NCBI GenBank assembly: GCA_027577415.1
Contig: JANBQS010000162.1
Coordinates: 1-29,990, forward strand
DNA: 29,990 bases
Origin: Coemansia sp. RSA 922
Taxonomy: Eukaryota; Kickxellomycota; Kickxellomycetes; Kickxellales; Kickxellaceae
Direction: 5' to 3'
Shown here: piece after piece, positions 7 to 29,990 of the stretch
How the letters are laid out: every line of letters starts with the position of its first letter
Position numbering within the stretch: position 1 is the stretch's first letter
Program-made: the position numbers and the translations under genes
The notes under the pieces: generated by a model
Databases searched by the model: none
What the model was told of the DNA's origin: nothing
The model's input: the letters and a program-made list of their open reading frames with translations, nothing else

Positions 7-597
7 TCAATAAAAGGCCATCGTGTATAGCAAACGATGAGGCATTCTTTTTTGAACATCTTCGATAATACCGTCCATATCGCGCTCCAAATCCTTCGAG
101 GCCACAATGCACTTTGCCAACTCGACAATAGTCTTTCCACCTGTCTGCGACTCTTTATGATTATCCTCGATTTCGATATTAATAACATGAACAGGTCTGC
201 TTTGTACGCCCGCGCGATTCAACAGCTCTTCGCATACCAGCTCAAAAACGCGCTCCTCGCAAGTGAAAATAACGTCGTAGGACATGTGTTCTTGTTGGAA
301 TTTTTCGGGCGCCAGTTTTACGGTCATATTGCGGTCAATCATTGCGAAAAGACCGAGACGAGTGTAATGAGTGTGTAGTCTTTCTTCTCCCTTGGCTTGT
401 GTCCTGAGATCGTTGTTTATCTGAGCGTAGGGTGTGCCAAAGTCGTAGTTGTTGGACCGGTTTTGTGAAGGTCCTGGTAGCCGGACCTGAGGACCTGTAC
501 CGTAGGATTGTACGTTGTAGCCGTGCTTTTTCAACTGGTAATGGCCCTCCATACTCCGGTTCATGTTACTCATACAAATTACGGCAAACTTTACCAT
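7..597 (-). CDS. ssu72: Ssu72, RNA polymerase II CTD phosphatase
   Basis: This 196-residue protein matches the Ssu72 family over its full length. The phosphatase P-loop is CMSNMNRS at residues 8-15 (C-X5-R-S, nucleophile Cys8, Arg14), and IEDNHKE around 143-149 carries the conserved Asp (D145) expected to act as general acid. The ending LLYTMAFY corresponds to the family's usual aromatic C-terminus, and TCEERVFE (112-119) is also typical. Ssu72 removes phosphate from Ser5/Ser7 of the polymerase II C-terminal repeat and is part of the cleavage and polyadenylation factor, acting in 3' end formation and termination in the nucleus. The start at 597 has a good context (gccATGg) and leaves no N-terminal extension. 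The stop lies at 7-9, so the 3' UTR runs off the window. No intron is needed. Confidence 0.97.
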   Translation of the reverse strand: MVKFAVICMSNMNRSMEGHYQLKKHGYNVQSYGTGPQVRLPGPSQNRSNNYDFGTPYAQINNDLRTQAKGEERLHTHYTRLGLFAMIDRNMTVKLAPEKFQQEHMSYDVIFTCEERVFELVCEELLNRAGVQSRPVHVINIEIEDNHKESQTGGKTIVELAKCIVASKDLERDMDGIIEDVQKRMPHRLLYTMAFY

Positions 598-8947: not shown

Positions 8948-11698
<2,751 letters not shown>

Positions 11699-14469: not shown

Positions 14470-15528
14470 ATGCTCACACATCGTTGCCTCGTTGTGCTAT
14501 CCTTGCTCGTAGTAGCCATTACGACTTTGGCATCCGCTAACAATGGCGAGTTAGCATGCACTTCCTCGGCGCCCGCTTCTCAAGACGAACTGCTCGACAC
14601 TATGGTCAATGGACATCGGCGGCTAGCTTTTGATCCTGACCTAAACGGGCCAAACACCGACAGCGCGAAAGCGGCCTTTCCCACCAATGACAGCAACATG
14701 GGAGCAAACGAACACGTAGAGGGACATAATCGGCGCTTCAAGAGCGACGACAAGGGCGACACAGATGGCGATAAAGACGGTGACAAGGGCGATGACAAGG
14801 GCGACAAGGGTGACAAGGGTGACAAGGGCGACAAGAAAGAAAAATGCGACTGCGGCAAAAAGGGAGGAAATAAGGACTGCTGCCACAACCAACCCGCCAC
14901 GCCGACATACCACATAAGTCTTGGTAACGAGGACAAGAGATACCAGACCATCTCGCTCCCCTCCCAGGGCTGTCCATTTGTATACGGAGACGATTTACGC
15001 AGCTCGCTTCCTCCACTGATCAAGCCTGGCTGCTGCCAGAGATACTGCTACAACCCTTGTTGCCAGCCCACGTGTGGCGCGTATGGCGCTTGTCCGGCTC
15101 AGAGAGTATGCTACGATCCCTGCAACCCTTACTGTCACCATTTGGAACCATGCTGCCAGAACCCGCCACCTCATTGCAACGCTCCTCCGTGCGGCTGCCC
15201 ACCTCCTTGCGGCTGTCCGCCACCTTGTTGCCCGCCTCCTTGCGTCTATCCACAGCAGTGCTGTCCTCCGCCTTGGAACTGTGGAGGCGGCTGCAATGGC
15301 TGCAATGGTTGCAATGGATGTGGCGGCGGATGTTGCAATGGCTGTGGTGGTTGCTGTAATGGCGACTGTCCCCCGCCTCCTTTTGTTTACGACGAATCTT
15401 GCGACCACACATGCGACCAAAAGAAGAATAAAAAGAAGAAAAAGGGCCACGGTTCCAAGTCGCATAAGAAATCTAATGGGCGCAACGCTGACAACTTTGA
15501 CAATGATTCTAACGACTACAACGGGTAG
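14470..15528 (+). CDS. Secreted Cys/Pro-rich protein with GDK repeats and Lys-rich end
   Basis: The product is 352 residues and not assignable to a named family. A signal peptide (MLTHRCLVVLSLLVVAITTLASA) is likely cut before Asn24. Two dibasic sites (GHRRLAF at 48-54, HNRRFKS at 86-92) could be Kex2 sites. Residues 94-123 are GDK/DGD repeats, highly charged. Cys-rich parts follow: CDCGKKGG...CC (126-138), then from 188 on CC/CP/CNGC patterns with PPC repeats (CGCPPPCGCPPPCCPPPC, 241-258) and NGCNGCNGCGGGCCNGC (276-292). The end is strongly basic (KKNKKKKKGHGSKSHKK) and then Asp/Asn-rich. It is the first gene of the cluster and converges with the Gly/Cys gene. No canonical TATA box is seen. 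A cross-linked wall or extracellular matrix role is inferred from composition only. Confidence 0.85.
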   Translation: MLTHRCLVVLSLLVVAITTLASANNGELACTSSAPASQDELLDTMVNGHRRLAFDPDLNGPNTDSAKAAFPTNDSNMGANEHVEGHNRRFKSDDKGDTDGDKDGDKGDDKGDKGDKGDKGDKKEKCDCGKKGGNKDCCHNQPATPTYHISLGNEDKRYQTISLPSQGCPFVYGDDLRSSLPPLIKPGCCQRYCYNPCCQPTCGAYGACPAQRVCYDPCNPYCHHLEPCCQNPPPHCNAPPCGCPPPCGCPPPCCPPPCVYPQQCCPPPWNCGGGCNGCNGCNGCGGGCCNGCGGCCNGDCPPPPFVYDESCDHTCDQKKNKKKKKGHGSKSHKKSNGRNADNFDNDSNDYNG

Positions 15529-15867
15529 AATAATTTAAAACTCTTTACATTTATATTACCTCTATACACATCATTATGTACGACATATTCACAAGAGATA
15601 CCTTGTCTCTAAATTGTACATTTACATGTGCTATTTTATATTAAGTGTCATAGACATAGTGCTAAAAAATAGTTGTGTATACAAAATGAATCATTTTGCG
15701 AAAATATATATATTGAAAGAAAATATAACGCTGTAAACAACTAAAATATGACTAGTGTCAGCCATAGACGCCGAGGTATCCAAATAAACCCGAGACGACA
15801 ACGACAAACAAATGTTAAAGTTGCGATAGCAAAGTGTAAAAGCAATGCGTAGCTCGACCAAACCGCT
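15529..15867. other. Convergent AT-rich intergenic region
   Basis: This 339 bp lies between two convergent stops, with AT-rich 3' UTR-like sequence on both sides (15,530-15,740) including poly-A signal-like motifs. I see no gene. Confidence 0.5.
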
Positions 15868-16845
15868 TTAACGGCATCCGCAGCCACCGCAACCGCCACA
15901 GCCACCGCAGCCTCCACATCCGCCGCATCCACCTCCGCAGCCGCCACATCCTCCACCGCAACCTCCACAGCCTCCACCGCAGCAGCCGTTTCCACCGTAT
16001 CCACCGCCGCCATATCCACCATATCCACCACATCCGCCTCCACAGCATGGCCTCTGGCATCCACAACCGCCACATCCTCCACAGCCGCCGCCTCCACAGC
16101 CGCCGCCATAGCCGCCATAGCCTCCGTTTCCGCCATACCCGCCATAACCTCCACATCCGCCGCAGCCTCCGCAGCCTCCACCACAGCATGGTCTCTGGCA
16201 GCCACATCCGCCGCAACCGCCACATCCTCCGCAGCCATTGCACCCACCACATCCGCCACAGCCTCCACCGCAACCACCACCTCCACAGCCGCCACAACCG
16301 TTACATCCGCCACATCCACCGCAGCCGTTACATCCGCCACAACCGCCACAACCACCGCCACAACCACCGCATCCGCCTCCACAGCCGCCGCACCCGCCAC
16401 AACCGTTACATCCACCGCAACCTCCGCAACCTCCACCGCAGCCGTTACATCCACCGCAACCGCCACAGCCGCCACAGCAGCAATGAAGATCTTTGGCTTG
16501 GGTGTGTGCAGCTAATGGGTTAGAAGTTGTCTTGGTGCCTGGAGCGACAAAGGCAGATTTACCGGGAATTGGAGCAGCGATAGATTGGGGATATGTTGCT
16601 GTCTGAGCTGGCGTGTCGCATTTTACGAGGATGTTTGATTGCACGGGGATTTGGGCCAACACGGGTGTTGCAGCCGGCGCAAAACTATGCAAGCTAGCCA
16701 TAGTGACAACTGGCGCAGCCACGGCAGGCGCGACGGACACACAACAATGGTCATTCTCGGGTGCAACCTGACCGGATGGGGCGGCAAGCGTGCCTGTAAA
16801 TATGGTAAGAAGGGCAAGCGCTAAGAGAATCCTCGGCGAAAACAT
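15868..16845 (-). CDS. Secreted Gly/Cys-repeat protein (GGC repeats)
   Basis: The product is 325 residues from the ATG at 16845; an in-frame TTG at 16857 is not a credible start. Signal peptide [21 protein letters not shown] is probably cut before Ala22. Residues 22-115 are Ala/Pro/Val-rich with a few Cys. After AKDLHCCC (118-124), which resembles the GKNLCC junction of neighbouring genes, the rest (about 204 residues) is nearly all Gly and Cys in GGC and NGC triplets with Gly/Tyr stretches (GGYGGYGG). The element [13 protein letters not shown] occurs twice, 141 bp apart, marking an internal duplication. It is transcribed opposite to its cluster neighbours, with TATAAA 88-93 bp upstream. Composition mixes the high-sulfur and glycine/tyrosine types seen separately in hair keratin-associated proteins. 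Function is unknown. Confidence 0.85.
15870..16480 (-). repeat. GGN/TGY low-complexity tract encoding Gly-Gly-Cys repeats
   Basis: A 9-bp-periodic, degenerate repeat (GGC/GGT-GGN-TGC/TGT) across the 3' two-thirds of the gene. Codon third positions vary while Gly and Cys are kept, so the repeat is held at protein level. A 141-bp internal duplication is visible from the two GCQRPCC blocks at about 16,043 and 16,184. Confidence 0.75.
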
Positions 16846-16932
16846 GGCGTGATACAACTATGGATATATTTGTATATAATGTAAGCGATTGTTTAATGAC
16901 CCACCGGAGGGAGTTGAGCGGAGCAAGCAGCA

Positions 16933-16938
16933 TTTATA
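16933..16938 (-). promoter_or_regulatory. TATA box of the Gly/Cys gene
   Basis: TATAAA on the minus strand, about 90 bp upstream of the ATG at 16845. Confidence 0.65.
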
Positions 16939-18137
16939 AGTTGACCAAACACTGCGTGCTTTTTGCCACTGAGTGACGTGTAGATAGCCGCTTCAGAATT
17001 AGGTAGAAGCTGACAAAGACAAGTAGACAAGAAAAAAATAACATACCTCTGAGCTCATGGGTACATTTAGAATCGCTTTTTGAAATCTTTCGAGATCATA
17101 TTTTGACCACGCTTGACATACGCCTATGTTGGCCACAGAGTTGCAGTCTCGAAAAAAATGAGATGTCTCGGAGCTTCTAACCCGTGGGAAGTGCAGTTGG
17201 TGCAAACGGTGCTCGCATTGGTATTCAGGATATATTTTTTATGACCAAGGGCACTTGCTTTGGGTGGTTCGTGTGGGGAAAATGGTTTGTCCGTTGTAGT
17301 TGGCTCTCAGCAAGCGGGGTATAAAGAAAGGTGACCTGCTACCGTGTGAGACTTTGCACACATTTGGTGCAGTAACAATCTGCCACTCCATTCTGAGCTT
17401 AATTTTGATCATATGTAATGTCTGGTGGAGGTGCTAGTATTTGCTTTGACAGCTTTTGCTGCAGGTTAGCGCGAGCTCTGTTGGAACAAGCGACCTTTGA
17501 AGCCTCGACATACGAGAAAACAAGCGCTAATTGGAAAAAGATGTGTCCCTCTTCGCAATGAGCTGCCAATTGGATTCAAGTTTGCGTCCAGTAAATAGAC
17601 AACGACAAAGTTGACTTTAAATACGGGTTGAGCAAATCAGTTCCTATAAAATCACCTCGACCACAAGTGCTGATTAGCCACTTGATCCCAGTTGTAGTTC
17701 ATTATCGACTAAGAGCACAATAAACAGCCATATACGCGTGAGCATGCCAGCGTATTTGCGCGTGGGCGTGGGCGTGGGTGTATGTACGTTTGAGTGCATT
17801 TTCCCTTAAATTGTGGACACGAACTTCAATCGTATGAGGTGTTTGCGACAAACTCCCACACGCTAAATGTCTGTGAGTGGAGGCGCCGTGGAAACTCACC
17901 ACCTCTTACCCCGCAAGCTGGCTCGTACACTAAATGAGATGCAGACCCTTGTCATCGGTAATAATTGATATCCCGTACGCCGGTATGATTATACAGGTAT
18001 TGCCAATTAGAGAACTACACACTAGATTACTTTGCGGAGCAATATTGAATGAGATCGGAGACATTCCAGTAGCACACTAACTTGCCCGTACTTTCTTCGA
18101 TTGTTTACAAGTCGTCGAGTAATGGCACAACGCCTAA

Positions 18138-18143
18138 TATAAA
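18138..18143 (+). promoter_or_regulatory. TATA box of the CCC-HHEP repeat gene
   Basis: TATAAA about 125 bp upstream of the ATG at 18264. Confidence 0.6.
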
Positions 18144-18263
18144 TGAAAGGACATCCCGCTGGCTGTCAAAGAAAAAGTTAAACAGAGCATTGTTAGTATC
18201 ATTTACCTAATTTACTCTTTGATAGTCGCACTCTACCAATAATATCGCGGCCACTTTTTGCTA

Positions 18264-19013
18264 ATGTTCAAGTCGATCTTTCTTGCGCTTGTCGCGGTCA
18301 TGGCGTTTGCCATGATGGTGATGGCTGCCCCTGTTGCATCTCCCGGATCCAAGGATGCCAGCATCGCCTCGGCCTCCGTCAATTCTGCCCTGCCGCTTAT
18401 TCCTCTACCACCCCCACCTGTCGGCCATTTTGCCTCGAACGTCGTCTCGGACCCTGCTAACAACGGAAAGGCCCTTTATGAAGGCGGTTACCAACGTGAC
18501 TCGTGCTGCTGCTGCCATCGTGAGCCGTGCTGCTGCGCACCCCCTTGCTGTTGCCATCGCGAACCCTGCTGCTGCGCTCCTCCTTGCTGCTGCCACCATG
18601 ACTCGTGCTGCTGCCACCACGAACCTTGCTGCTGTGCGCCTCCTTGCTGCTGCCATCATGAGCCTTGCTGCTGCCATCATGAGCCTTGCTGCTGCCACCA
18701 CGAACCCTGCTGCTGCCACCACGAGCCTTGCTGCTGCCACCACGAGCCTTGCTGCTGCGCTCCTCCGTGCTGCTGCCACCATGATTCGTGCTGCTGCCAT
18801 CACGAGCCTTGTTGCTGCGCGGCGCCTTGCTGCTGCCATCACGAACCCTGCTGCTGTGCTCCTCCTTGCGGCTGCTGCCGTGCGGCTCCTCGGTGTGGCT
18901 CGTGCTGCGGACCATGCTGCTACCATACCAAGCGGACTGCCATCTACAAGGACGGCTGCCTCCAGCACGTCTGGTGTGACTCGTGCTGCAACAGCAACAC
19001 CTGCGGTCTGTAA
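18264..19013 (+). CDS. Secreted CCC-HHEP heptad-repeat protein
   Basis: The product is 249 residues from the ATG at 18264; an in-frame TTG six bases earlier is not used. Signal peptide MFKSIFLALVAVMAFAMMVMA is cut near Ala21/Ala22. Residues 22-80 are Ser/Ala/Pro-rich. Residues 81 to about 200 are a regular array of CCC triplets separated by HHEP, HREP, HHDS, APP or AAP: 18 spacers in all, giving seven- or six-residue periods. The C-terminal 45 residues have spaced Cys (RCGSCCGPCCYH, GCLQHVWCDSCCNSNTCGL) and may fold. About 68 residues are Cys. Alternating Cys and His-His-Glu suggests Zn/Cu binding or a disulfide mesh; both are inference. It lacks the PAGKNL junction of its downstream neighbours. 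AATAAA is at 19112-19117. Confidence 0.85.
   Translation: MFKSIFLALVAVMAFAMMVMAAPVASPGSKDASIASASVNSALPLIPLPPPPVGHFASNVVSDPANNGKALYEGGYQRDSCCCCHREPCCCAPPCCCHREPCCCAPPCCCHHDSCCCHHEPCCCAPPCCCHHEPCCCHHEPCCCHHEPCCCHHEPCCCHHEPCCCAPPCCCHHDSCCCHHEPCCCAAPCCCHHEPCCCAPPCGCCRAAPRCGSCCGPCCYHTKRTAIYKDGCLQHVWCDSCCNSNTCGL
18504..18870 (+). repeat. 21/18-bp coding tandem repeats (CCC-HHEP / CCC-APP)
   Basis: Units alternate between 21 bp (TGC TGC TGC CAY CAY GAR CCN) and 18 bp (CCC-APP). Five consecutive HHEP units occur at about 18,650-18,755. The array is direct, without unique spacers. Confidence 0.85.
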
Positions 19014-20086
19014 ATTGGACCTAAATACAGGAGATCAGTCAAAATAGTCTCGCTACAAATGTGTAGAATTACTCTGTCTCCGTTGTCTTTGATATTTTAT
19101 ATATAGCATATAATAAACAATTTTTACAACATTTCTCGTCTAAAATGCTGGTTGCTAATCTTCCATTTGCGACTAAAAACAATTAATTCATATGTCGAGT
19201 TGCTTTGAGGGATCCAACATATTAAGGCGACTGAATACAAACGATGCCGTCAGCTAGCCGCGATAGTGCCGGTCCAAAGCTAACGCAAAATATATTGCTA
19301 TCTATTTACCATAGTCATTGAGAGACTTGACGCTGCGGTAACAAAAAAACATGCCGGGCCAATCAATATGTGCCGTATACAACTTTGCCTCAGCAGCACA
19401 GTCAGCATCACTACTAACCACACCAGGAGCAAACTATTATGCGTGTATGTCTTCTTCGGCTCGGGCGGCTCTGGGCGGGTTTCTGTTGCTCCACAGTTTA
19501 TTTTTTTTCTCCACTTTTTGATATCTCTCCCCTTCAGTTTCACACGCCCGTATATGAGTTTGACATTGCAATTGTACAAATCCTCTTTGAAGCGGATTAG
19601 CCACTCTAGTCTGTTATATCCTCCACATAGTGGCCCTCTCCCCTCTTCCTCCAGTTTTCGTTTAGGTTTCCTCCGCTTAAATATATGGCGCTAATAAATG
19701 TTGTCATCAATTCTACTAATTGGAGTGTGCGTTTGACCCTCTTAACCTGTCAGTGTATTTGCAAGAGGAAATTATATCCACCGCATTGGTCTCCGCATTG
19801 GTCAAGTATGCTAATAGCAAATGAAGCCAATATACCCCGTGCCAAATGAGTACGGGGATGCTATTTGGAATAGACGCAAGCTCTGCTACGAATACATTTG
19901 TCATTTTAGAGTGGCGGTGACTGCACGCAGCCTGCTTGACCGAAAGTTAAGCATTGGAGCACCTTCTGCCTTTCAATGGTTATAAGTAGAGTCCAGCTGG
20001 CCGCTATCCACATTCGAGTGCAATCTATATTGTACCGCACAGTTCTATTCTGATAATCCTTATCCGCTCTAATCGCTAATATCACC
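19014..20086. other. Intergenic region
   Basis: In 1.07 kb I see the 3' UTR of the HHEP gene and the upstream region of the next gene. It includes two direct copies of CCGCATTGGT at about 19,780-19,802, an inverted pair CCCCGT/ACGGGG (19835-19840 and 19852-19857), and a TATA box at 19981. No gene is supported. Confidence 0.5.
19981..19988 (+). promoter_or_regulatory. TATA-like box of the mixed Cys/Gly gene
   Basis: TATAAGTA lies 106 bp before the ATG at 20087. Confidence 0.5.
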
Positions 20087-20941
20087 ATGACCAACTTGAA
20101 AAGGTCACTCATCTCGCTGTTTTTCGCAGTCGGTCTCGCCTCGGCCACCAATTCCGCAGGAGCTAGTCAGCATGAGGGAGCAGCTATAGTCGCCCAGCAC
20201 GCACCAGCCTTTGTGCCGCAGGCTCCATCGTTTGACTCGCCAGCCAAGAAGTTCAACCATGCCGTTGTTAGCGCAGCCCCCGTGCCAGGCGCCTTTGTGA
20301 CCCCCACGCTGTTTGCTCACAGCATGCCCACTCTCGCACCTTCTACTGGCAGATCGCAGCAGCCTCTGGCTGGTGGTGCTCCGGCTCGCATGCAAAGCAA
20401 TCGTGGGTCTCGCCCGAATGGCAATGCTCCGGCCACTACTGCTATCAAGTCGACTCAGCGCGCACCTGTGGCTAACTCCGCCGGTGTTGCCAAGCACCCC
20501 GCCGGAAAGAACCTGTGTTGCGGCTGCTGCTGCCCCTGCTGCCAACCCTGCTGCCATTGCTGTTGCTGCCCTTGCTGCAAGTGCTGCAAATGCTGCAAGT
20601 GCTGCTGCTGCCCTTGCTGCTGCTGCAATCATTGCTGTGGATGCGGATGCGGCGGCGGCGGCGAAGGAGGTGGATATGGCGGCGGGTATGGTGGTGGATA
20701 CGGTGGTCACGAAGGTGGATGCGGATGCTGCGGATGCGGTTGCGGTGGGTGCTGCCACCACTGTTGCGGACCTTGCGGCGAGTGCTGCCACCATTGTTGC
20801 CACCACTGTGGCCCATGCGGCTGCCACCACGAGGAGTCGTGCTGCCACCACTGCGGCTGCTGCGGCTGTGGTTGTGGATGTGGTTGCGAGGGTGGAAATG
20901 GCGGATACGGTGGATATGGTGGTGGGTACGGCGGGTATTAA
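20087..20941 (+). CDS. Secreted mixed poly-Cys / Gly-Tyr protein
   Basis: The product is 284 residues. Signal peptide MTNLKRSLISLFFAVGLASA is cut near Ala20. Residues 21-137 are an Ala/Pro/Ser-rich, mostly uncharged region. HPAGKNLCC (137-145) is the junction motif shared with the genes at 22,164, 23,678 and 25,293. The Cys block (144-188) reads CCGCCCPCCQPCC... with KCCKCCKCC, then a Gly/Tyr/Glu block (189-210, GGGYGGGYGGGYGG), a His/Cys block (212-267, CCHHCC, CGPCG, CHHEESCC, CGCGCGC) and a Gly/Tyr end (268-284). It thus combines modules that are separate in its neighbours. Start 20087 has a good context (accATGa). Function unknown; a cross-linked surface or matrix protein is inferred. Confidence 0.86.
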   Translation: MTNLKRSLISLFFAVGLASATNSAGASQHEGAAIVAQHAPAFVPQAPSFDSPAKKFNHAVVSAAPVPGAFVTPTLFAHSMPTLAPSTGRSQQPLAGGAPARMQSNRGSRPNGNAPATTAIKSTQRAPVANSAGVAKHPAGKNLCCGCCCPCCQPCCHCCCCPCCKCCKCCKCCCCPCCCCNHCCGCGCGGGGEGGGYGGGYGGGYGGHEGGCGCCGCGCGGCCHHCCGPCGECCHHCCHHCGPCGCHHEESCCHHCGCCGCGCGCGCEGGNGGYGGYGGGYGGY

Positions 20942-22163
20942 CGCCTGACACATTTATTCACTTATTACTTTTGATACCTCTTTATGCTTAGAATGCACAG
21001 ACGCACAAGCACATCTATTCGTTTAATAATATGGTCATCTACACTTTACCTATAACACAACTGCTCTCACTTTGATACAGCAGTGACGTGCCTTGAGGCT
21101 CATACCAGCTTTATATCCATTTTGCAACATTATAGAGAATCCGCCAGCATGCGATATTATACATTTTTAGATGCTGGCAACACTTGTGAGGTGCTGTTAA
21201 ATTATCCAAGAACCTGAACTGGGTGATAGCGCGCAATAGATAGTCCGCTTTTAGGAAATTTCTTTACTTGGAGACAGCGATAGAGCCTAATGTTTTTGCA
21301 AAGTAGTTAAAATGGTAGCTTCTGTGCACATTCCGATACAAAAACTAAAGAACACTAGGCGATTCCATGCCAACGCCGTCAACATTGAGCGAGCTCTAGT
21401 TCGTATTTTTCCAAGCGCTCTCGCGCTGGCAGGCTAGGTAAAGGGGCTTGAAGGAGCCTGAAAAGACATATGTAGGCACGGTGGTGCCGTCGAGGGAGCC
21501 ATAGAGATCTTTGATACCTGGCTTCTCTAGTACAGCGGCGTGTACGCTGGCTCTGGGCATCAGCGATACAACGACCACCGCAAACTCACGGCAGCTCAAC
21601 AACACACTTCGTGATGCAGCACTCGGCCAACTAGATTTCCTTTTTTGAAGTGCGCGGAGAGGTTTTGGCTTGAAGCAGTAGTGGATGCCACGGTTATCTA
21701 AGCGGCACGGATTAAACCCCTCAATACTCGCATGAAATTATATTTCTTTCATTTCTAGGCAGTTTTCTTGATTTGGCGGGTGATTTCCCACCATATATTT
21801 TATGAAAGCCCGAGAGCTTGGAGAGAATTATATTGCCCGCTCCCGCTATCCCGCACCTGTATATCGAGTAATTCATTTAAAGTAATATCTGGCGGACCCC
21901 AGAGTTTACCAATGTCGTGTATTTTATTACCGCTGACTGACGGCGTACATTGTGAGGCGGGCTTAGAGCACCGCTTAGATTATTGATATTGAGGGTATTA
22001 ACGCGCTGGAGCTTTCCACTGGTTATGCGTGACTAGCAAACGACTCTATAAAAGCGAGCACATTGCTACCTAATTTCCCTTTAGGTGCTTTCTACGCTCA
22101 TCTCTCTTTTACTACTCGTCTTAGCTGCTAACATTAATTTACTATAACTTTTAATCAGCTACA
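20942..22163. other. Intergenic region
   Basis: In 1.22 kb I find no supported gene; a 69-codon minus-strand frame at 21,396-21,605 has no signal peptide or family resemblance. The right end has the TATA box at 22047. Confidence 0.5.
22047..22054 (+). promoter_or_regulatory. TATA box of the poly-Cys gene at 22164
   Basis: TATAAAAG, 117 bp upstream of the ATG, identical in sequence to the boxes of the two tandem copies downstream. Confidence 0.7.
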
Positions 22164-22853
22164 ATGGTTCGTCTCAACATGCGCTCCTTCGCCTTCATGG
22201 CTTTGGCCATGGTCGCCGCCGCATCGCCCGTTCTTAACGCCGCCAAAGATGCCGCCGCGCCCGCTGCTTTAAGCGTGCCAGCAGCCCCAGCCCCAGCCCC
22301 GGTTGCTCCCGTAGCGCCCCTTGCCGACGCAAACCGCAAGCAAGGAGTTGCGGTGGCCGATGCCCACAGTGCGCAGCAGCTTCAGGCACCTGCCAGCGGC
22401 AACGTCGCTCAGAACGAGAACATCGATGTGTCCAAGATGGGCATTTGGGTTCCGTGCACAGAGAGCGAGTGCATGAGGGACATGACTCCCGAGCAGAAAG
22501 AGGCTTTCAAGCGCGACTGCGAGAAGATGCAGCTGGCTCATAAGAACGACTCTGTCGACGGAAAGAGCCGCGTTGCAGACCCCACTGCCCTCAACTACTT
22601 CCAGATGATTATCCCCGAGAAGGACGCTGCCAGGCTTGCCCTCAACAATCAGCGCGTGACTACCATCCCGAGCCTTCATGTTCTCAACGAAAATGCCGTC
22701 GGAAACCGTCCTGCCGGCAAGAACCTGTGCTGCTGCTGCTGCTGCCCATGCTGCTGCCACTGTTGCTGCTGCCCGTGCTGCTGCTGTTGCAAGTGTTGCT
22801 GCTGCAAGTGTTGCTGCTGCTGCCCATGCTGCTGCCACTGCTGCTGCTGCTAA
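22164..22853 (+). CDS. Secreted poly-Cys-tail protein, first of three relatives
   Basis: The product is 229 residues. Signal peptide within MVRLNMRSFAFMALAMVAAA, cut near Ala20 or Ala26. An Ala/Pro/Val region (27-80) is followed by a charged, probably helical domain (86-165) containing VPCTESECMRDMTPEQKEAF and three Cys. RPAGKNL (182-188) leads into a 41-residue tail (189-229) with 34 Cys, interrupted only by Pro, His and Lys in runs of three to six Cys. CCPCCCHCCCC occurs both near the start and at the end of the tail. The MTPE helix resembles repeats in the genes at 23,678 and 25,293, and its 3' UTR is homologous to that of the 23,678 gene, so the three genes are related. Tail codons are mostly TGC with some TGT. 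Function unknown. Confidence 0.86.
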   Translation: MVRLNMRSFAFMALAMVAAASPVLNAAKDAAAPAALSVPAAPAPAPVAPVAPLADANRKQGVAVADAHSAQQLQAPASGNVAQNENIDVSKMGIWVPCTESECMRDMTPEQKEAFKRDCEKMQLAHKNDSVDGKSRVADPTALNYFQMIIPEKDAARLALNNQRVTTIPSLHVLNENAVGNRPAGKNLCCCCCCPCCCHCCCCPCCCCCKCCCCKCCCCCPCCCHCCCC

Positions 22854-23677
22854 GTAGCAGTCTAGAGCTTGGCTCATTAGTCTCTTTTACTTTTTGGACT
22901 ACGCAAAATACGTCATTGATTATATATACACCGACTTTTTTTTACTTTATTGACATTCAGCCTGGTCTCTTTGGATGGTGTACCCGCCAAAAGCTACAAG
23001 TGCCCGGCGAATTTACTCTGCTGACATCGCTGTTCCACATCCGCGCGTTTGTAAAGTACTAGCTGCGCGCCGTTAAACTTGGATCAGTGGCCTTTTGATC
23101 GCGTTGAAAATAGAAATTAGGGCCCATCCAAGATAATCCCAGTCAATGTTAAATTGTGAGCGTGTGTACTCGTATACCCCAGTTCACGCGCACCCAGATA
23201 ATATAGCCTGGGGATTAATTTAGGGCAATCCCCGCACTGACGGCCTTACTTTGGTGTCTGTAGCCCTCTACTGCTCAGATATGCTACTCTCGCTATATGG
23301 TCAAGCGCTGCCCTGGGTATTTCCGGCTGCAACATACTTTACTAAGGCTGCTAGGCTTCTGGGAACCTTTTTTGGCTTGCGGATTGGCTTTACACAAGCA
23401 ATGCGCTTGTAAAATACGAGCTAGGAAATGCCTCATTTGCCGTAGTCGCGTAATTAAAGAGATATGTCTGAAACACATGAGAACTTGAACTTTGCCATGC
23501 TTGCGCAAAGACCTAAAGCACAACTATCTCATTCTGTGAGATCTATAAAAGCTACCACACGAGCATTGGCACATTACAAAATGCCTCAACACATATCTTG
23601 GAATTCGTTCATTATTGCTTTCAATTGCTTACTTGGAGTGTATACCAAACATTTTAGCCGATCTCTACATTTTCCCC
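22854..23677. other. Intergenic region, homologous to 24503-25292
   Basis: Contains the 3' UTR of the 22164 gene (22,854 to about 23,040, similar to 24,503-24,710) and the promoter and leader of the next gene. CCCCGCA is at 23230-23236 and TATAAAAG at 23544. From 23,465 on it is identical to the second copy. Confidence 0.65.
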
Positions 23678-24500
23678 ATGCGCTCGCTTTGTTTTGTCCC
23701 GCTAGCCTTGTTGCTCCCATTGGCATTAGCAAATAATGTACCCAGTATATCGTCAGCCGTAGGCATGCCGGCAACGGCGGCTGAGTTGGCCAACATCCCG
23801 ACAGTTGTCGCCGATGCGTTCGCCGGTGCTGCTCGTAGAGATTTGGTGACCCCCACCATGCCTCACGGCGCGCCCACAAACTTGCCACACGATTTCAACG
23901 GCGGCCACAGCGCTGGTTATGCACCCATGAGTGCACCGGTGAATCACGCTTTCGGCCACGGACCTAATCAACAGGAGGTTCGTCGTGAACAGGCGTCCAC
24001 GCAGCCTCAAGAGGACAACGCAGTTGCCGTCCCGGTGCCCGACACGACCAGCGCGGGTGACAAGTCCAAGATGCAGCAGATGATGCTATTCTTCCCTGAT
24101 CCTAACAGCAAGTTGACGCCGGCGCAGCAGCAGGAGTGGAGCCACAACTTTCAGCACTCCATGTCGCTCATGACACCAGAGGAGCGCAATGACTGGATGC
24201 AAAAAGTTCAGCGTACGATGGGCCAACCTTCACAGTCTCCTAACGCGGCAACGCACGACGGCCACCAAGCAGTTGAAGCCAACCAGCGGTCCGAGAACCA
24301 GATGGGCATTGTTCCAGCCCATTTGCTTCACTCCTTAGTTGCGCACAAGGATGGCGGCGACCATCGCCCAGCCGGCAAGAACCTGTGCTGCTGCTGCTGC
24401 TGTCCGTGCTGCTGCTGTTGTTGCTGCCCTTGCTGCTGTTGCTGCTGTCATTGCTGCCACTGCTGCCACTGCTGCTGTTGCTGCCCTTGCTGCTGCTGCT
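23297..24500 (+). repeat. Tandem duplication, copy A (gene at 23678)
   Basis: Direct repeat of 24,912-26,135, at a constant offset of 1,615 bp until a 48-bp insertion in copy B. By eye 23,465-23,745 is identical in both copies. Weaker similarity continues left to about 23,190 and into the preceding gene's 3' UTR. Confidence 0.92.
23544..23551 (+). promoter_or_regulatory. TATA box, tandem copy A
   Basis: TATAAAAG, 134 bp before the ATG at 23678. An upstream ATG at 23581 lies 37 bp downstream of it and opens a 51-codon frame that overlaps the main start. Confidence 0.7.
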
Positions 24501-24502
24501 AA
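23678..24502 (+). CDS. Secreted poly-Cys-tail protein, tandem copy A
   Basis: The product is 274 residues from the ATG at 23678; the open frame to the left starts at a TTG and lacks a signal peptide. Signal peptide MRSLCFVPLALLLPLALA, cut before Asn19. The N-terminal half is Ala/Pro/His-rich with dibasic sites (AARRDL at 51-56, VRREQ at 101-105). Residues 130-181 form a helical domain with two related repeats, LTPAQQQEW (146-154) and MTPEERNDW (165-173), each followed by Q and M at matching positions. HRPAGKNL (229-236) precedes a 38-residue tail (237-274) with 32 Cys, broken by Pro and by HCCHCCHCC. No other Cys follows the signal peptide, so the charged domain is Cys-free. Near-identical to the 25,293 gene. 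Confidence 0.88.
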   Translation: MRSLCFVPLALLLPLALANNVPSISSAVGMPATAAELANIPTVVADAFAGAARRDLVTPTMPHGAPTNLPHDFNGGHSAGYAPMSAPVNHAFGHGPNQQEVRREQASTQPQEDNAVAVPVPDTTSAGDKSKMQQMMLFFPDPNSKLTPAQQQEWSHNFQHSMSLMTPEERNDWMQKVQRTMGQPSQSPNAATHDGHQAVEANQRSENQMGIVPAHLLHSLVAHKDGGDHRPAGKNLCCCCCCPCCCCCCCPCCCCCCHCCHCCHCCCCCPCCCC

Positions 24503-24763
24503 GTAGCTTTCTAGATCTTGGCTTATTGGCCCTCTTTGCTCTTTGGATTGAGCAACTTAATTTTATCGATTTTCATATACACCGACTTTTTATTTCATTG
24601 ACATGTATCTGGGCCGCCTCAGATGGTGAGCCAGCCAAAACCATTTGGCAGCTGTGGATATGCTCAGGAATCAAGCGCCCAGCAAACTTCCATTGCTGAC
24701 GCTAATTTCTAGAAATTCTACGCAATCAAAGATGTTCCCAGCCTTAACTCGATATGCAATATT

Positions 24764-24795
24764 GTGTGTGCGTGTGTGCGTGTGTGCGTGTGTAC
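24764..24795 (+). repeat. GTGTGTGC/GTGTGTGT microsatellite
   Basis: Roughly 32 bp of gtgtgtgcgtgtgtgcgtgtgtgc. It is followed within 25 bp by a complementary acacgcacac stretch at 24,810-24,822, so a hairpin is possible. Copy A has only a short gcgtgtgtactcg remnant. Confidence 0.65.
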
Positions 24796-25158
24796 GCCTA
24801 TATCTCTTCACACGCACACCCAAACAATATAGCCTGAGCAACTTCCCCGCATTGGCGCTCTTACTTTGGAATTTGTTGCCCTCTACTGCTTGGACATGCT
24901 ATTTTTGCTGGATGGTCAAGCGCTGCCCTGGGTATTTCCGGCTGCAACATACTTTACTAAGGCTGCTAGGCTTCTGGGAACCTTTTTTGGCTTGTGGATT
25001 GGCTTTACACAAGCAATACGCTCGTAAAAGACGAGCTAGGAAATGCCTCATTGTTTGCGGTTGCGTAGTTCAAGAGATGTGTCTGAAACACATGAGAACT
25101 TGAACTTTGCCATGCTTGCGCAAAGACCTAAAGCACAACTATCTCATTCTGTGAGATC

Positions 25159-25166
25159 TATAAAAG
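25159..25166 (+). promoter_or_regulatory. TATA box, tandem copy B
   Basis: TATAAAAG, 134 bp before the ATG at 25293, in identical context to copy A. Confidence 0.7.
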
Positions 25167-25292
25167 CTACCACACGAGCATTGGCACATTACAAAATGCC
25201 TCAACACATATCTTGGAATTCGTTCATTATTGCTTTCAATTGCTTACTTGGAGTGTATACCAAACATTTTAGCCGATCTCTACATTTTCCCC

Positions 25293-26138
25293 ATGCGCTC
25301 GCTTTGTTTTGTCCCGCTAGCCTTGTTGCTCCCATTGGCATTAGCAAATAATGTACCCAGGATATCGTCAGCCGTAGGCATGTCGGCAACGGCGGCTGAG
25401 TTGGCCAACATCCCGACAGTTGTCGCCGATACGTTCGCCGATGAGTTCACTAGTGAGTTCGCTGGTGAGTTCGCTGGTGAGTTCGCTGGTGCTGCTCGTA
25501 GAGATTTGGCGACCCCCACCATGCCTCACGGCGCGCCCACAAACTTGCCACATGATTTTAGCGGCGGCCACAGCGCCGGTTACGCACCCATGAGTGCACC
25601 GGTGAACCACGCCTTCGGTCATGGACCTAACCAGCAGGAGGTTCGTCGTGAACAGGTATCCGTGCAGCCTCAAGAGGACAACGCAGTTGCCGTCCCGGTA
25701 CCCGACACGACTAACACGGGGGACAAGTTCAAGATGCAGCAGATGATGCTATTCTTCCCTGATCCTAACAGCAAGTTGACGCCGGCGCAGCAGCAGGAGT
25801 GGAGCCACAGCTTTCAGCACTCCATATCACTCATGACACCAGAGGAGCGCAATGACTGGATGCAAAAAGTTCAGCGTACGATGGGCCAACCTTCACAGTC
25901 TCCTAACGCACCAACGCACGACGGCCACCAAGCAGTTGAAGCTAACCAGCGGTCCGAGAACCAGATGGGCATTGTTCCAGCCCATTTGCTTCACTCCTTA
26001 GTTGCGCACAAGGATGGCGGCGATCATCGCCCAGCCGGCAAGAACCTGTGCTGTTGCTGCTGCTGTCCGTGCTGCTGTTGTTGCTGTTGTTGCTGTTGCC
26101 CGTGTTGCTGCTGCTGTTGTCCATGCTGCTGTTGCTAG
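25293..26138 (+). CDS. Secreted poly-Cys-tail protein, tandem copy B
   Basis: The product is 281 residues, with the same layout as the 23,678 gene: identical signal peptide (MRSLCFVPLALLLPLALA), Ala/Pro/His-rich region, paired LTPAQQQEW / MTPEERNDW helices, HRPAGKNL, then a poly-Cys tail (253-281). Two differences stand out. A 16-residue insertion (DEFTSEFAGEFAGEFA region) comes from four 12-bp repeats at 25,443-25,490. The tail is shorter and purer: 26 Cys in 29 residues with only three Pro, in runs of 6, 10, 6 and 4. Its 26 Cys codons mix 15 TGC and 11 TGT, so it is not a simple slippage product. Both the promoter and uATG are conserved with copy A. Function unknown. Confidence 0.88.
   Translation: MRSLCFVPLALLLPLALANNVPRISSAVGMSATAAELANIPTVVADTFADEFTSEFAGEFAGEFAGAARRDLATPTMPHGAPTNLPHDFSGGHSAGYAPMSAPVNHAFGHGPNQQEVRREQVSVQPQEDNAVAVPVPDTTNTGDKFKMQQMMLFFPDPNSKLTPAQQQEWSHSFQHSISLMTPEERNDWMQKVQRTMGQPSQSPNAPTHDGHQAVEANQRSENQMGIVPAHLLHSLVAHKDGGDHRPAGKNLCCCCCCPCCCCCCCCCCPCCCCCCPCCCC
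25443..25490 (+). repeat. 12-bp minisatellite, four units, encoding EF(A/T)(G/S)
   Basis: GAGTTCACTAGT followed by three exact GAGTTCGCTGGT units. The 48 bp correspond exactly to the insertion that distinguishes copy B from copy A and keep the frame. Confidence 0.92.
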
Positions 26139-26912
26139 TTTGGTGGCGATGTTGCGCCACATAGATGAACGTTCAAGCCATGTAAAGTCATTTGCTACCG
26201 TCGGTTCTGTTGTGCGCCTAATATTTGTTAATTTTCGTTAATTTTCGTTTTTCTCGTCTTTAAGTATACCCTATCTTGTTATGAAACCATTTTAAAACCT
26301 GTGAGCTCGTGTGCCCATTCAAAACTCTTGCCCACAACACTGACGCGGGGATGGAGAACAGGTTACTGTCCACCTCGGAATGCTCTCACTCGACTCCCCG
26401 CCCCTCCAGAGATGACTAGCACTATTCACACCGTTTGGAATATCCCCGCACAATCACAGTCAAGCGGTCTTCATTATATGCATGCTGCTTGCGACACCTT
26501 GCGCGCCATGGACCGGCTATGAAGTTCAGCAGGGTGCGTGGGAAAACTATGAGCAAGTAGCAGCTACGCTTACAAAGTGCTTGCAAGTTATTCTTATATA
26601 CGGGGTCCAATGAACTGCATGTTCCACACTTTGTTTTAGCGTGCAGAAACATTGCAGGCACACAGCCGCTAGACACTGATCATGATGTGCAATTCCAGAA
26701 GCGATTGAAATGTGCTTACTCTCTCTCCGGTACCTTTGACTCTGGTGTTTGCCTTAAATTACTTGTTTCCGCCTATTGCAGCATACATGCTCGCGCACTT
26801 GGTATATAAAATTTTGCCACCACTATTTTTTTTTTTGTCTTTTATTTTGCCATCGCCACACTTTAGTACTTTTATTTTTAATTATCGCTGCCGCAGCGAC
26901 TTCACAGCTCGC
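26139..26912. other. Intergenic region
   Basis: In 774 bp I see no gene. It has several CCCCG elements (26,345 on the minus strand, 26,396, 26,444) and the TATA box at 26803. The open frame of the next gene extends left to 26,712, past the TATA box, so that part cannot be in the mRNA. Confidence 0.5.
26803..26810 (+). promoter_or_regulatory. TATA box of the large mosaic poly-Cys gene
   Basis: TATATAAA, 110 bp upstream of the ATG at 26913. Its position inside the extended open frame argues for the downstream start. Confidence 0.7.
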
Positions 26913-29084
26913 ATGACACATCCTGGTGCACGCAGGCGGCGGATCACGCATTTTCCACTGTTACTTGCCACTGTAGCATTCGCATGTTTGACTTCATGCG
27001 CTTGGTCGCTGCCCGAATCGTTGGTAGCCGTTCCAAGCCTCAGCTCGGTTCAATCAATAGCCGAAGTATGTCCTTCGGAGTCGGTCGTCCTGGTGCCGAG
27101 TACTCTGGCGGCAATTCCACTGCAGCGAATTGTCACGAGTATATCAGAGATCGACGCCAGCGCATCGGCAGTACATGAGCAAGTGATGACTGCGGACTCG
27201 CAGCTAGGCTTGACAGTAAGTCTAAACACACAAGACGAGATTACTGACTCGGAGCTGGAAGTTACCACGACCTCGCTTACCACCAACTATGTGTCATCCG
27301 CTGTTACGCTCGTTCAGTACATCCAATCGCCAGTTCTCTATCAGCCCCTCTCCAGCGACGTCACCATACCTCTAATAGCGTCGCCGACTTTGCAGATACA
27401 GGCGTCATTGGATCCCTTGTCTTCGACGTCCAGTGATATATCCACTTACTCGATTGCTCCCGTAGACCCATCCTCAGTAACCGCTGACGCACTAGTACCT
27501 AGCCCGAGTTTACAAACTCCGCAGCTTAACAATGCCACTTTGGCAATGCCACGCATACGCTATGGATCGGCGCCGCCACCTGCCAAGCAGCGCAAGTGCA
27601 GTCGGCACATGCGACCATGGGCAGGGATGCCCAAAATTGTCTACCACCCGGGCGTCAATCGCACGCTGGGCTACTGGGGTCCGCAGGGCATGTACCCCTA
27701 CGACAACATGCTCATGCACTACGGCGACAAGAATCAGTTTACGTCATACGGCACCATGTTTATCAACGACACTGTCGTGAACGGACTGCATCCCTACTTG
27801 TTCATGGGTAACGGTACTATTCTCGACGGCTGGATGGAAGCCGGTAACGATACGACGGCGCTCAACAAGGTACTCAATGGCACGACGGTGCGCGGAAATA
27901 GCCTTTGTTGTTGTTGTTGCTGCCCATGTTGTTGTTGCTGCTGTCCGTGCTGCTGCTGCTGCTGTCACTGTTGTCATTGCTGCCACTGTTGCTGCTGCCA
28001 CTGCTGCTGTTGCCATTGCTGCCATTGCTGCTGCCATTGTTGCTGTTGCAAGCCTTGCTGCTGCTGTTGCCATCCGTGCCACTGCAAACCCTGTCATTGC
28101 TGTTGCCAACCTTGCTGTCAACAAGGTTGTTGTGGGGGCGGTGAGGGTGGAGAGGGTGGCGGTGAGGGTGGCGAAGGCGGCGAGGGCGGAGGTGAGGGCG
28201 GAGAAGATGGAGAAGGCGGCGGTGAAGGAGAGGGCGGTGGCGGCGAGGGAGATGGTGGCGGCGGCGAAGGAAGCCACGAAGGCGAAGGCGACGGCGGCGA
28301 AGGTGGTGGAGAGCAAGGTGGCGGAGAGCAAGGTGGCCCTGGCGGTGGTGGCGGCTGTGAGGGAGGCAACGGCGGATGTCAAGGCAATGGCGGATGTCAA
28401 GTCAATGGCGGGTGTCAAGGCAACGAGTGCCCCAATGGAAATGGACCTGTAAATAATGGCGGATGCTGCCCGCCTCCTCCTCCTCCTCCTCCTTGCGAGT
28501 ATCCGGCTCCTCCGTCTACAGTGTATCTTGCTGGCAACCACACTCCGATTCACCAGACCATTGTGATCAACAGAGTCTCTCGAGTTGTACCAGCGCCTCG
28601 GGCACCGATATACAGACCCCCGACCCCTGTTGCGGCGCCCCGCGCCGTTCAAACACACGTTACGATTTACAACGTTGAGGGACAACCACCGGGCTACGCT
28701 AAGCCAAATACGCGCTATCCTGCGCCGATTGCCAGACCGGCCGGATATTTACCAATGCGGTGTGGCCCTGGTGGTGTGCCTGCGAGCAATATCCAACGTG
28801 TTGTGCCACGTCCAGTGGCTATGGCGGGTGGGGCCAACGCCGTTGTTCGGGCGCCTCCAGCTGCGCCTCTGCCCACTGTACGTCTACCCGCTGCACCAAT
28901 CTATAGGCCAGCCGGTCTCGTCAAGAATGCTGCGGTTGCTAGGCCTATGGCAGCTCCTATTCCTGTGGCAGTTGCTGGACCGATGGCAGCTCCTATTCCT
29001 GTTGCAGTTGCTCCTCCTCAGGCGCGAGCAGCCTGCGCTGCAAATGTAGCACCAGTTCCAATTCGCCTGGGTGCAAGCGCCTAA
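26913..29084 (+). CDS. Large mosaic secreted protein: glycosylated domain, poly-Cys, Gly/Glu polyanion, Pro/Ala/Val tail
   Basis: The product is 723 residues from the ATG at 26913, which follows a TATA box by 110 bp; an ATG 67 codons upstream lies before the TATA box. Signal peptide MTHPGARRRRITHFPLLLATV...SCAWS has a basic start and a hydrophobic core. Residues 33-210 are Ser/Thr/Val-rich, likely O-glycosylated. Residues 228-325 are a Tyr/Trp/Met-rich domain with sequons at Asn249, 285, 300, 312 and 322. RGNSLCC (327-333) replaces GKNLCC. Residues 332-407 hold 54 Cys of 76, including the HCCHCCHCC pattern of the 23,678 gene. Then come a Gly/Glu polyanion (408 to about 515), a GGCQGN repeat segment, poly-Pro (PPPPPPPP) and a Pro/Ala/Val/Arg-rich C-terminus with PMAAPIPVAVA repeated. 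It appears built by module fusion. Function unknown; a matrix or adhesive protein is plausible. Confidence 0.85.
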   Translation: MTHPGARRRRITHFPLLLATVAFACLTSCAWSLPESLVAVPSLSSVQSIAEVCPSESVVLVPSTLAAIPLQRIVTSISEIDASASAVHEQVMTADSQLGLTVSLNTQDEITDSELEVTTTSLTTNYVSSAVTLVQYIQSPVLYQPLSSDVTIPLIASPTLQIQASLDPLSSTSSDISTYSIAPVDPSSVTADALVPSPSLQTPQLNNATLAMPRIRYGSAPPPAKQRKCSRHMRPWAGMPKIVYHPGVNRTLGYWGPQGMYPYDNMLMHYGDKNQFTSYGTMFINDTVVNGLHPYLFMGNGTILDGWMEAGNDTTALNKVLNGTTVRGNSLCCCCCCPCCCCCCPCCCCCCHCCHCCHCCCCHCCCCHCCHCCCHCCCCKPCCCCCHPCHCKPCHCCCQPCCQQGCCGGGEGGEGGGEGGEGGEGGGEGGEDGEGGGEGEGGGGEGDGGGGEGSHEGEGDGGEGGGEQGGGEQGGPGGGGGCEGGNGGCQGNGGCQVNGGCQGNECPNGNGPVNNGGCCPPPPPPPPCEYPAPPSTVYLAGNHTPIHQTIVINRVSRVVPAPRAPIYRPPTPVAAPRAVQTHVTIYNVEGQPPGYAKPNTRYPAPIARPAGYLPMRCGPGGVPASNIQRVVPRPVAMAGGANAVVRAPPAAPLPTVRLPAAPIYRPAGLVKNAAVARPMAAPIPVAVAGPMAAPIPVAVAPPQARAACAANVAPVPIRLGASA
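28134..28365 (+). repeat. GGN-GAG low-complexity tract encoding a Gly/Glu polyanion
   Basis: Degenerate GGY-GAR-GGN repeats with variable third positions encode GGEGGEGGGEGG-type sequence of about 75 residues, immediately after the poly-Cys block. The frame is kept throughout. Confidence 0.8.
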
Positions 29085-29939
29085 GGCTTGTGCATGCCAG
29101 TCGTTTTACCGGCTCATTGCTGTATCTTGGCAGTGAGTTGTTGTTTTTATGTTACTCTTGTCTGTTATTCATAATTCTATTGAATGTACTATTTAAACTT
29201 TTATGGATCCGCTGCCTACTCGTCTAGAAAGCGAATATTGGCGACAAGTCGTCGTGTAGACAGTTGACATGCTATATTAGCAACTAATCAATCAAAGCGT
29301 ATTAGTGATAGTGATCTGACGTGGAGGGCAGATAGAATTTGTAAATGCTTTAGAAATATGTGTGTGAGAAGCTAATAAACACCTGTGGAGCAATTGCTAG
29401 TAAAGCTATCCTTCACTTGGCTCGCACATCTGCTCAGTCCGCTCGACTAAATGTGGTTTTATTTTTTTGCCGCGTCATAGCCCCTTTCCCTACTCATAGT
29501 TTGAAGCGAGCTTTATCAACCAATCAATATTTGAATGAATTACAGCAAAGGAACACGAGTTATTGGCACAGCAATACCCCGGATGATAAAGATTTGGCGT
29601 GAGTCAAATTGCAACAGAAATTAATCAAATATACGGTGTGTGTGTGGGAATCAATCATCCGCAATTTTGGCAAATATTTGTGGATGGGAACTGAGGGGGG
29701 ATATTGGAAAGCAGTCACTCAAAGGGTGAGGACCATGTCTTGCTCGGTGTGTTAATTGGTATTGTACTTAAACACTTGTACTGGCCACGGTGAGGCGCCT
29801 CCCAGCATCTCCTTGTTATAGACCTTTTATGATCACTTGGGCGCTAATATTCTAATCTACAGCCCACACTCTTTTCATTTCTTTCTTTGTTAAACGCGGT
29901 ACCTGTGGTCGCTATACGTTCTAATAATCGCATACTCCC
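29085..29939. other. Intergenic region
   Basis: In 855 bp I see the 3' flank of the mosaic gene and the presumed promoter of the partial gene at 29940, with TATAGA-like sequence at about 29,817. An 80-codon open frame at 29,360-29,602 has no supporting features. Confidence 0.45.
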
Positions 29940-29990
29940 ATGAATCGTGCTCTCGCTAGTGCACTAGCGGTGCTGCTAGCATTTGCCTGC
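29940..29990 (+). CDS. Start of a ninth secreted protein gene, cut by the window edge
   Basis: An ATG at 29940 opens a frame that reads MNRALASALAVLLAFAC to the last base of the window without a stop: a basic residue followed by a hydrophobic core, as in a signal peptide. A TATA-like TTATAGA at about 29,816 lies 124 bp upstream, the same distance as in the other cluster genes. Orientation and spacing fit the array. The rest is outside the window, so neither the Cys-rich content nor the product can be confirmed. Confidence 0.55.
   Translation, partial: MNRALASALAVLLAFAC

Follow-up and report, generated by a model that had tools for sequence, protein, structure and literature searches.

Clusters of genes for cysteine-rich structural proteins are already known from hair and insect eggshell, and among the keratin-associated proteins (KRTAPs) of hair the ultra-high cysteine class begins at about 30% or more Cys over the whole protein. 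KRTAP genes are reported to form tandem clusters with Cys-rich and Gly/Tyr-rich classes, to be unique to mammals and to give hair its rigidity through disulfide cross-linking, with 39.5% and 50.1% Cys given for subfamilies 28 and 30 (PMC2528016). The cluster considered here is fungal and is analogous to such Cys-rich coat-protein clusters rather than a member of one. It occupies positions 14470 to 29990 of a 29,990-nt contig of Coemansia sp. RSA 922 (JANBQS010000162.1, C162; 20.4-Mb genome, 960 contigs), the whole of which is the window analyzed. Three of its genes end in poly-Cys tails and a fourth encloses a poly-Cys block whose run lengths, as read from relatives, seem to have been held almost without change.

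Metallothioneins are short, lack a signal peptide and carry spaced CxC/CC motifs, and silkmoth Hc chorion proteins have Gly-Cys arms. The silkmoth HcA/HcB genes are described as clustered, their Cys-rich products penetrating and cross-linking an extracellular coat, and chorion genes as mostly tight divergent pairs with a common promoter and two exons (PMC4639761). The nematode protein Ts-PCHTP, which has a signal peptide, a Cys- and His-rich sequence and a poly-His tail, is reported in cuticle and tissues and as not excreted (PMC2954182). Among engineered sequences, 5xCys tags are reported in use in electrobiofabrication (PMC8250426).

The first-pass annotation of the window had described eight complete genes in a row followed by a truncated ninth, and this arrangement is borne out. 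Eight complete open reading frames (ORFs) run from ATG to stop at 14470-29084 without interruption, seven on the plus strand and g2 alone on the minus strand, where it is convergent with g1 and divergent from g3 over about 1.4 kb; a ninth start lies at 29940. The genes and their parts are as follows, with lengths in amino acids (aa) and P numbers denoting the related proteins introduced below.

g1, 14470..15528, plus strand: 352 aa, 42 Cys; signal-like start, DKG/GDK-rich stretch, Cys/Pro and Gly/Asn/Cys-rich region, Lys-rich C-terminus; relatives P0015, P0016 and P0022
g2, 15868..16845, minus strand: 325 aa, 40% Gly, 61 Cys; signal-like start, then a long Gly/Cys repeat (GGCGGC) with GYGGYGG
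g3, 18264..19013, plus strand: 249 aa, 68 Cys (27.3%); CCCHHEP/CCCAPP repeats after the signal-like start
g4, 20087..20941, plus strand: 284 aa, 57 Cys; signal-like start, HPAGKNL junction, CCx runs, Gly/Tyr/Cys/His-rich region
g5, 22164..22853, plus strand: 229 aa; the signal-like start is followed by a conserved 3-Cys region and an RPAGKNL junction that leads into the poly-Cys tail; relatives P0017, P0018, P0020, P0021 and P0023-P0026
g5 poly-Cys tail, 22728..22850, plus strand: 34 of 41 residues Cys, laid out as C6-P-C3-H-C4-P-C5-K-C4-K-C5-P-C3-H-C4
g6, 23678..24502, plus strand: 274 aa, tandem duplicate of g7; a signal-like start and a TPAQQQEW/TPEERNDW region precede the HRPAGKNL junction and the poly-Cys tail; relatives P0001-P0003
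g6 poly-Cys tail, 24386..24499, plus strand: 32 of 38 residues Cys
g7, 25293..26138, plus strand: 281 aa, paralogue of g6 with the same junction
g7 poly-Cys tail, 26049..26135, plus strand: 26 of 29 residues Cys, with one run of 10
g8, 26913..29084, plus strand: 723 aa; after the signal-like start come a sequon-bearing domain, an internal poly-Cys block, an acidic region rich in Gly/Glu and a C-terminal arm rich in Pro; start taken at the ATG at 26913 as in relatives P0004-P0006, a longer start at 26787 also being open; relatives P0004-P0013
g8 conserved domain, 27585..27896, plus strand: five N-glycosylation sequons (NRT, NDT, NGT, NDT, NGT)
g8 poly-Cys block, 27906..28133, plus strand: 76 aa, 54 Cys (71%)
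g9, 29940..29990, plus strand: first 17 codons, signal-like start, reading MNRALASALAVLLAFAC, cut by the contig end

A signal-like start here means a hydrophobic N-terminus by the Kyte-Doolittle scale, as distinct from a signal-peptide prediction, and such a stretch is found in all eight complete proteins (best 10-residue mean 2.46-3.37). Each also has a Cys-rich region, so that the pairing of the two features claimed earlier is seen in 8 of 8. Summed over the eight proteins, 393 of 2717 residues are Cys, and the content per whole protein is 9.4-27.3%, compared with 0.0-2.6% for nine ORFs from the left half of the window. This composition is not due to chance, since 100 first-order Markov resamplings of the region gave a single ORF in total comparable to the eight real ones (151 aa or longer and 9% Cys or more, a set identical with g1-g8); the maximum of Cys per 60 residues was 46 in the real region and 10 in the resamplings. 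None of the eight ORFs matches any Pfam family at E≤1, the CYSTM, hydrophobin and CFEM profiles included.

With KRTAPs the locus shares the presence of Cys-rich (g3, g5-g8) next to Gly/Tyr/Cys-rich (g2, g4) members in one cluster, but it is fungal, its proteins have signal-like starts, and g5-g8 combine long non-repetitive N-terminal parts with Cys runs of 6-10. The label “ultra-high cysteine” given to these genes at first is apt for regions, the g5-g8 tails being 71-90% Cys, and not for whole proteins, all of which fall under the KRTAP threshold. With no Pfam match and with named relatives from Coemansia throughout, the likeness to KRTAPs is one of analogy only. The Gly/Cys repeat of g2 resembles the Gly-Cys arms of the silkmoth proteins, whereas the divergent-pair layout of chorion genes is absent here, seven of the eight genes lying on one strand and all being single ORFs. 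Metallothioneins are similar in their high Cys content and in a possible metal-thiolate chemistry, and differ in that the present proteins are 229-723 aa long, have signal-like starts and are without a Pfam match. Ts-PCHTP is comparable in its signal-type start and Cys/His richness as reported (PMC2954182), while its motifs CxCCC[HPY]x[PN]x[PN]x5C and CGxCS occur in none of the eight proteins. Synthetic poly-cysteine and 5xCys tags are man-made, whereas the runs in this cluster are natural and, in g8, conserved. In the titles and abstract openings of the open-licence literature on Kickxellomycotina and Coemansia, fungal Cys-rich spore walls and septal plugs, no described fungal system of this form was found, in agreement with the first-pass annotation.

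Three protein searches yielded 26 proteins (P0001-P0026), and all 24 that carry a source name are from Coemansia (Kickxellales), as expected of the fungal, Kickxellomycotina-type family proposed at the outset. P0017, from Coemansia sp. RSA 455, shows 100% identity over 82% of g5; P0014 was judged an unrelated low-complexity match. Because the reach of the searches is limited (they need shared 5-residue words, and the best 7,980 and 7,998 candidates were scored in two of them), the restriction to Coemansia is a lower bound on the spread of the family.

Most of the corresponding GenBank models do not display the Cys-rich sequence. Five of the 24 named models end before or at the tail (P0002, P0003, P0005, P0023 and P0024), and of the 19 that extend into the Cys region 17, by inspection, fail to show it, one through excision (P0015) and 16 through a shift into another frame (P0001, P0004, P0006-P0013, P0016, P0017, P0020-P0022 and P0026). 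In fourteen of these 16 the Cys tract becomes an Ala/Val-rich string; P0016 and P0022, relatives of g1, are shifted one base on. The Cys reading is kept by P0018 (C. furcata) and P0025 (RSA 2706), in both cases in the g5 tail, whose layout is the same in P0018 apart from one additional Cys. The joins made by the models differ within one conserved stretch, falling after LNKVLN in P0004, LNK in P0006 and DGWM in P0012, a scatter that fits a gene predictor dodging an odd composition rather than real introns. In comparisons within the window, codon position 3 varies more than positions 1 and 2 when the tails of g5-g8 are read as Cys. Of the possible readings, that in the Cys frame suits the poly-Cys tails best.

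In g8 the opening 57 residues of the block read C6-P-C6-P-C6-H-C2-H-C2-H-C4-H-C4-H-C2-H-C3-H-C4-KP-C5-HP. When the shifted models of eight relatives (P0004, P0006, P0007 and P0009-P0013) were decoded back and compared with this stretch without gaps, its length of 57 having been picked after an earlier decode had been seen, 352 of 352 Cys positions were compatible with Cys at codon positions 2 and 3, the two that the decode covers; 129 of these show a silent TGC/TGT difference from the window, and there is no indel in the 57 columns. The stretch is identical in P0009 and P0011, and with the seven distinct rows counted once the figures are 308/308 Cys and 112 silent differences; they are 312/312 and 103 if the positions that set the register (five Cys and two Pro columns) are excluded. 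Silent variation is spread over 36 of the 44 Cys columns. At the other residues Pro is retained in 32/32 (18 silent), His in 54/64 (20 silent) and Lys in 7/8. By the codon table, visible single-base changes would mostly replace Cys, and none was found in the stretch. Conservation is higher in the Cys stretch than in the g8 domain just upstream, which is 64-91% identical in the same relatives. That domain is predicted to be beta-rich, in a structure model with a mean pLDDT of 67 and blocks at 69-84 over residues 11-80. A previous count with gaps, taken over the full 76 residues in seven records, had given 335 of 354 Cys positions, 14 of the 19 misses falling in P0013, where the alignment slipped, three in P0009 and one each in P0010 and P0012. 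Taken at the level of sequence, the comparison points to strong purifying selection on the g8 block.

In the genome of RSA 922 the family is concentrated in this cluster. All four matches of a GKNLCC codon pattern lie inside it, as do eight of the 12 matches of CCCCCCP, in frame with its genes, and at the other four CCCCCCP matches the complementary strand carries an ORF rich in Gln or Ser. At the CCCCCCP site in contig C233 the Cys frame is open as a 132-aa ORF inside a longer opposite-strand Gln-rich ORF, and was taken as the complement of the latter. The GGCGGC pattern falls in g2 in 24 of 30 cases, the other six equalling the number obtained with the reversed-pattern control (6). The stricter CCxCCxC pattern has 28 genome matches, eight of them in the cluster, with 11 for its reversed control; the 20 outside matches are spread over 18 places, and at the four in C695, C794, C98 and C691 (6 of the 20 matches) there is no Cys-rich ORF with a signal-like start, though in C695 a frame without Met stays open for 118 aa and includes 17 Cys. 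The broad patterns CCCxCCC (405 matches) and CCxCCxCC (290) were set aside as uninformative, being mostly CTG-type repeats among the matches listed. As protein queries, g1, g3, g4, g6 and g8 revealed no convincing extra copy elsewhere in their own genome, where g1 and g3 are their own sole match. A weak match of g8 to C10 (E 5.7e-4) faces a Ser/Pro-rich stretch of a chitinase-like ORF and was put down to chance. The first-pass annotation had held that homologues scattered singly through the genome would count against a dedicated locus; as far as tested, on the GKNLCC and CCCCCCP counts, the outcome is the opposite. A C6-P-C6 codon pattern has five sites in a prokaryote collection and one in viral contigs, none a convincing poly-Cys gene because the Cys ORFs are 15-194 aa long and a longer ORF occupies another frame or strand.

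Within the cluster, the PAGKNL-polyCys junction is common to four proteins (g4, g5, g6 and g7) of three N-terminal types, and a profile comparison of g5 with g6 aligns the junction and tail only; each of g5, g6 and g7 has its tail of 83-90% Cys behind a longer N-terminal part of ordinary type. Genes g6 and g7 arose by tandem segmental duplication, the segments 23229-24482 and 24844-26136 being 92.5-94.5% identical over upstream and coding sequence, and the pair appears to be under coding constraint since dN is 0.026 against a dS of 0.129 (NG86, 236 codons; dN/dS about 0.2). Near its N-terminus g7 has an extra EFAG-type repeat of 16 residues. GenBank models fused from the g5 N-terminus into g8 (P0009 of RSA 1646 and P0010 of RSA 2336) or from g5 into g6 (P0024) place gene 5 next to gene 8 or gene 6 in three relatives, which suggests a conserved adjacency. 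Six of eight upstream regions (g2-g6 and g8, not g1 or g9, with g7 omitted as a duplicate of g6) have a TATA-like box at a distance of 93-134 bases from the ATG, a range picked post hoc, against one of eight control genes. The left half of the window (7-597, 8948-11272 and neighbors) holds ordinary-looking genes, which are taken to encode an Ssu72-like protein, a Prp43-like DEAH helicase and mitochondrial ribosomal proteins.

The cluster probably encodes a secreted set that builds an insoluble, disulfide-rich extracellular material of Coemansia, and the best guess places this material in the wall of the spore or sporangiolum, in a septal plug or in some other layer of the wall. The chains would enter the secretory pathway, and after secretion their poly-Cys runs would pair between chains to form cross-link nodes, since runs of 6-10 Cys are unlikely all to pair within one run. 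The matrix may be supplied by g2 and g4 (Gly/Cys, Gly/Tyr) together with g3 (His/Cys repeat), and g8 could act as a bridging or anchoring component through its sequon-bearing domain, Cys block, acidic arm and Pro-rich arm, its fixed run lengths setting the number and register of bonds. In vitro, lysozyme has been reported to become cross-linked by poly-L-cysteine of 6-11 residues in the presence of urea and at 60°C (PMC5613652).

Several observations weigh against this reading and the conservation on which it draws. The decode of shifted models is blind to the first codon position, a limit from which P0018 and P0025, deposited in the Cys frame, are free. For g3, variation does not peak at codon position 3. 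Past position 57, in the last 19 residues of the g8 block, the decoded relatives diverge in spacers and order; the g6 and g7 tails are unequal (38 and 29 residues), and the g5 tail of P0025 has shifted spacers and a different number of Cys. The g8 run lengths are more exact than loose cross-linking would call for and might instead reflect a defined metal site. No cross-linking enzyme or partner filament was recognized in the window, the left half of which was not tool-annotated, and the location and stage of the proposed material are guesses. Finally, a TATA-like box anywhere within 220 bases is found in six of eight regions against three of eight controls, and no longer upstream word is common to the genes beyond the resampled expectation, so that co-regulation is weakly supported.

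The main rival to a cross-linked material is a set of secreted or wall-bound metal-thiolate proteins, whose poly-Cys/His blocks would form defined clusters with soft metals such as Cu(I), Zn or Cd, serving to sequester or detoxify them or to harden a wall with metal. Such a role is rather unlikely, although it would account for the exact g8 run lengths with their Pro, His and Lys spacers and for the CCCHHEP repeats of g3, and Ts-PCHTP is reported to bind Fe, Ni and Zn (PMC2954182). The secretory pathway, as is well established, is oxidizing; no metal-related role suggests itself for the Gly/Cys- and Gly/Tyr-rich partners; and in the g8 stretch the relatives have changed His at 10 of 64 positions with no visible change of Cys. 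Nor was a metal transporter or metal-regulator gene recognized in the window, with the same reservation about its left-half ORFs. A mixture, both metal-hardened and cross-linked, is possible. The secreted-type starts, Cys richness, clustering and absence of Pfam matches would also suit effectors or antimicrobial-type Cys-rich secreted peptides acting on other organisms, an explanation of low probability given that Cys homopolymer runs are unlike the spaced disulfide frameworks of such peptides and that the g8 register is kept across species; in addition, Kickxellales are described as mostly saprotrophic (PMC10386755). Least credible of all is that the Cys frame is untranslated and that real introns move translation into the Ala/Val frame of GenBank, as the 16 shifted models among 19 would have it, since their joins are scattered within one conserved stretch, an Ala frame would make the second codon position the most variable in g5-g7, all differences at Cys and Pro positions of the g8 stretch (A/V, H/R/L/P) are silent in the Cys frame (with the caveat that 10 His and one Lys positions change non-silently), two models keep the Cys frame, and the window ORFs continue unbroken into the tails.

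Beyond the favored reading of a disulfide-rich extracellular material, a more specific proposal can be put forward tentatively, and it is doubtful when taken as a whole: that the poly-Cys tail is a new secreted module, with run lengths kept to the residue in g8, which was moved via the PAGKNL-type junction onto different N-terminal domains; that it amounts to a defined polythiol code, either of fixed inter-chain disulfide nodes or of a stoichiometric metal-thiolate cluster hardening the fungal wall; and that it stayed hidden because gene predictors shift the tails to another frame. It is the conserved poly-Cys module that may be categorically new. The comparison in any case exposes an annotation fault in the GenBank models of Coemansia, and since 17 of 19 lose the Cys region, a search of annotated proteins would overlook most of these tails. 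The near-absolute constraint was seen in a single block compared across species, that of g8. Natural Cys runs of 6-10 residues would, if the reading is true, be a natural counterpart to engineered poly-Cys tags, and the cluster would represent a new natural route to a cross-linked (or metal-hardened) extracellular material, fungal and apparently of independent origin, in culturable, mostly saprotrophic soil and dung fungi in which the question is directly testable.

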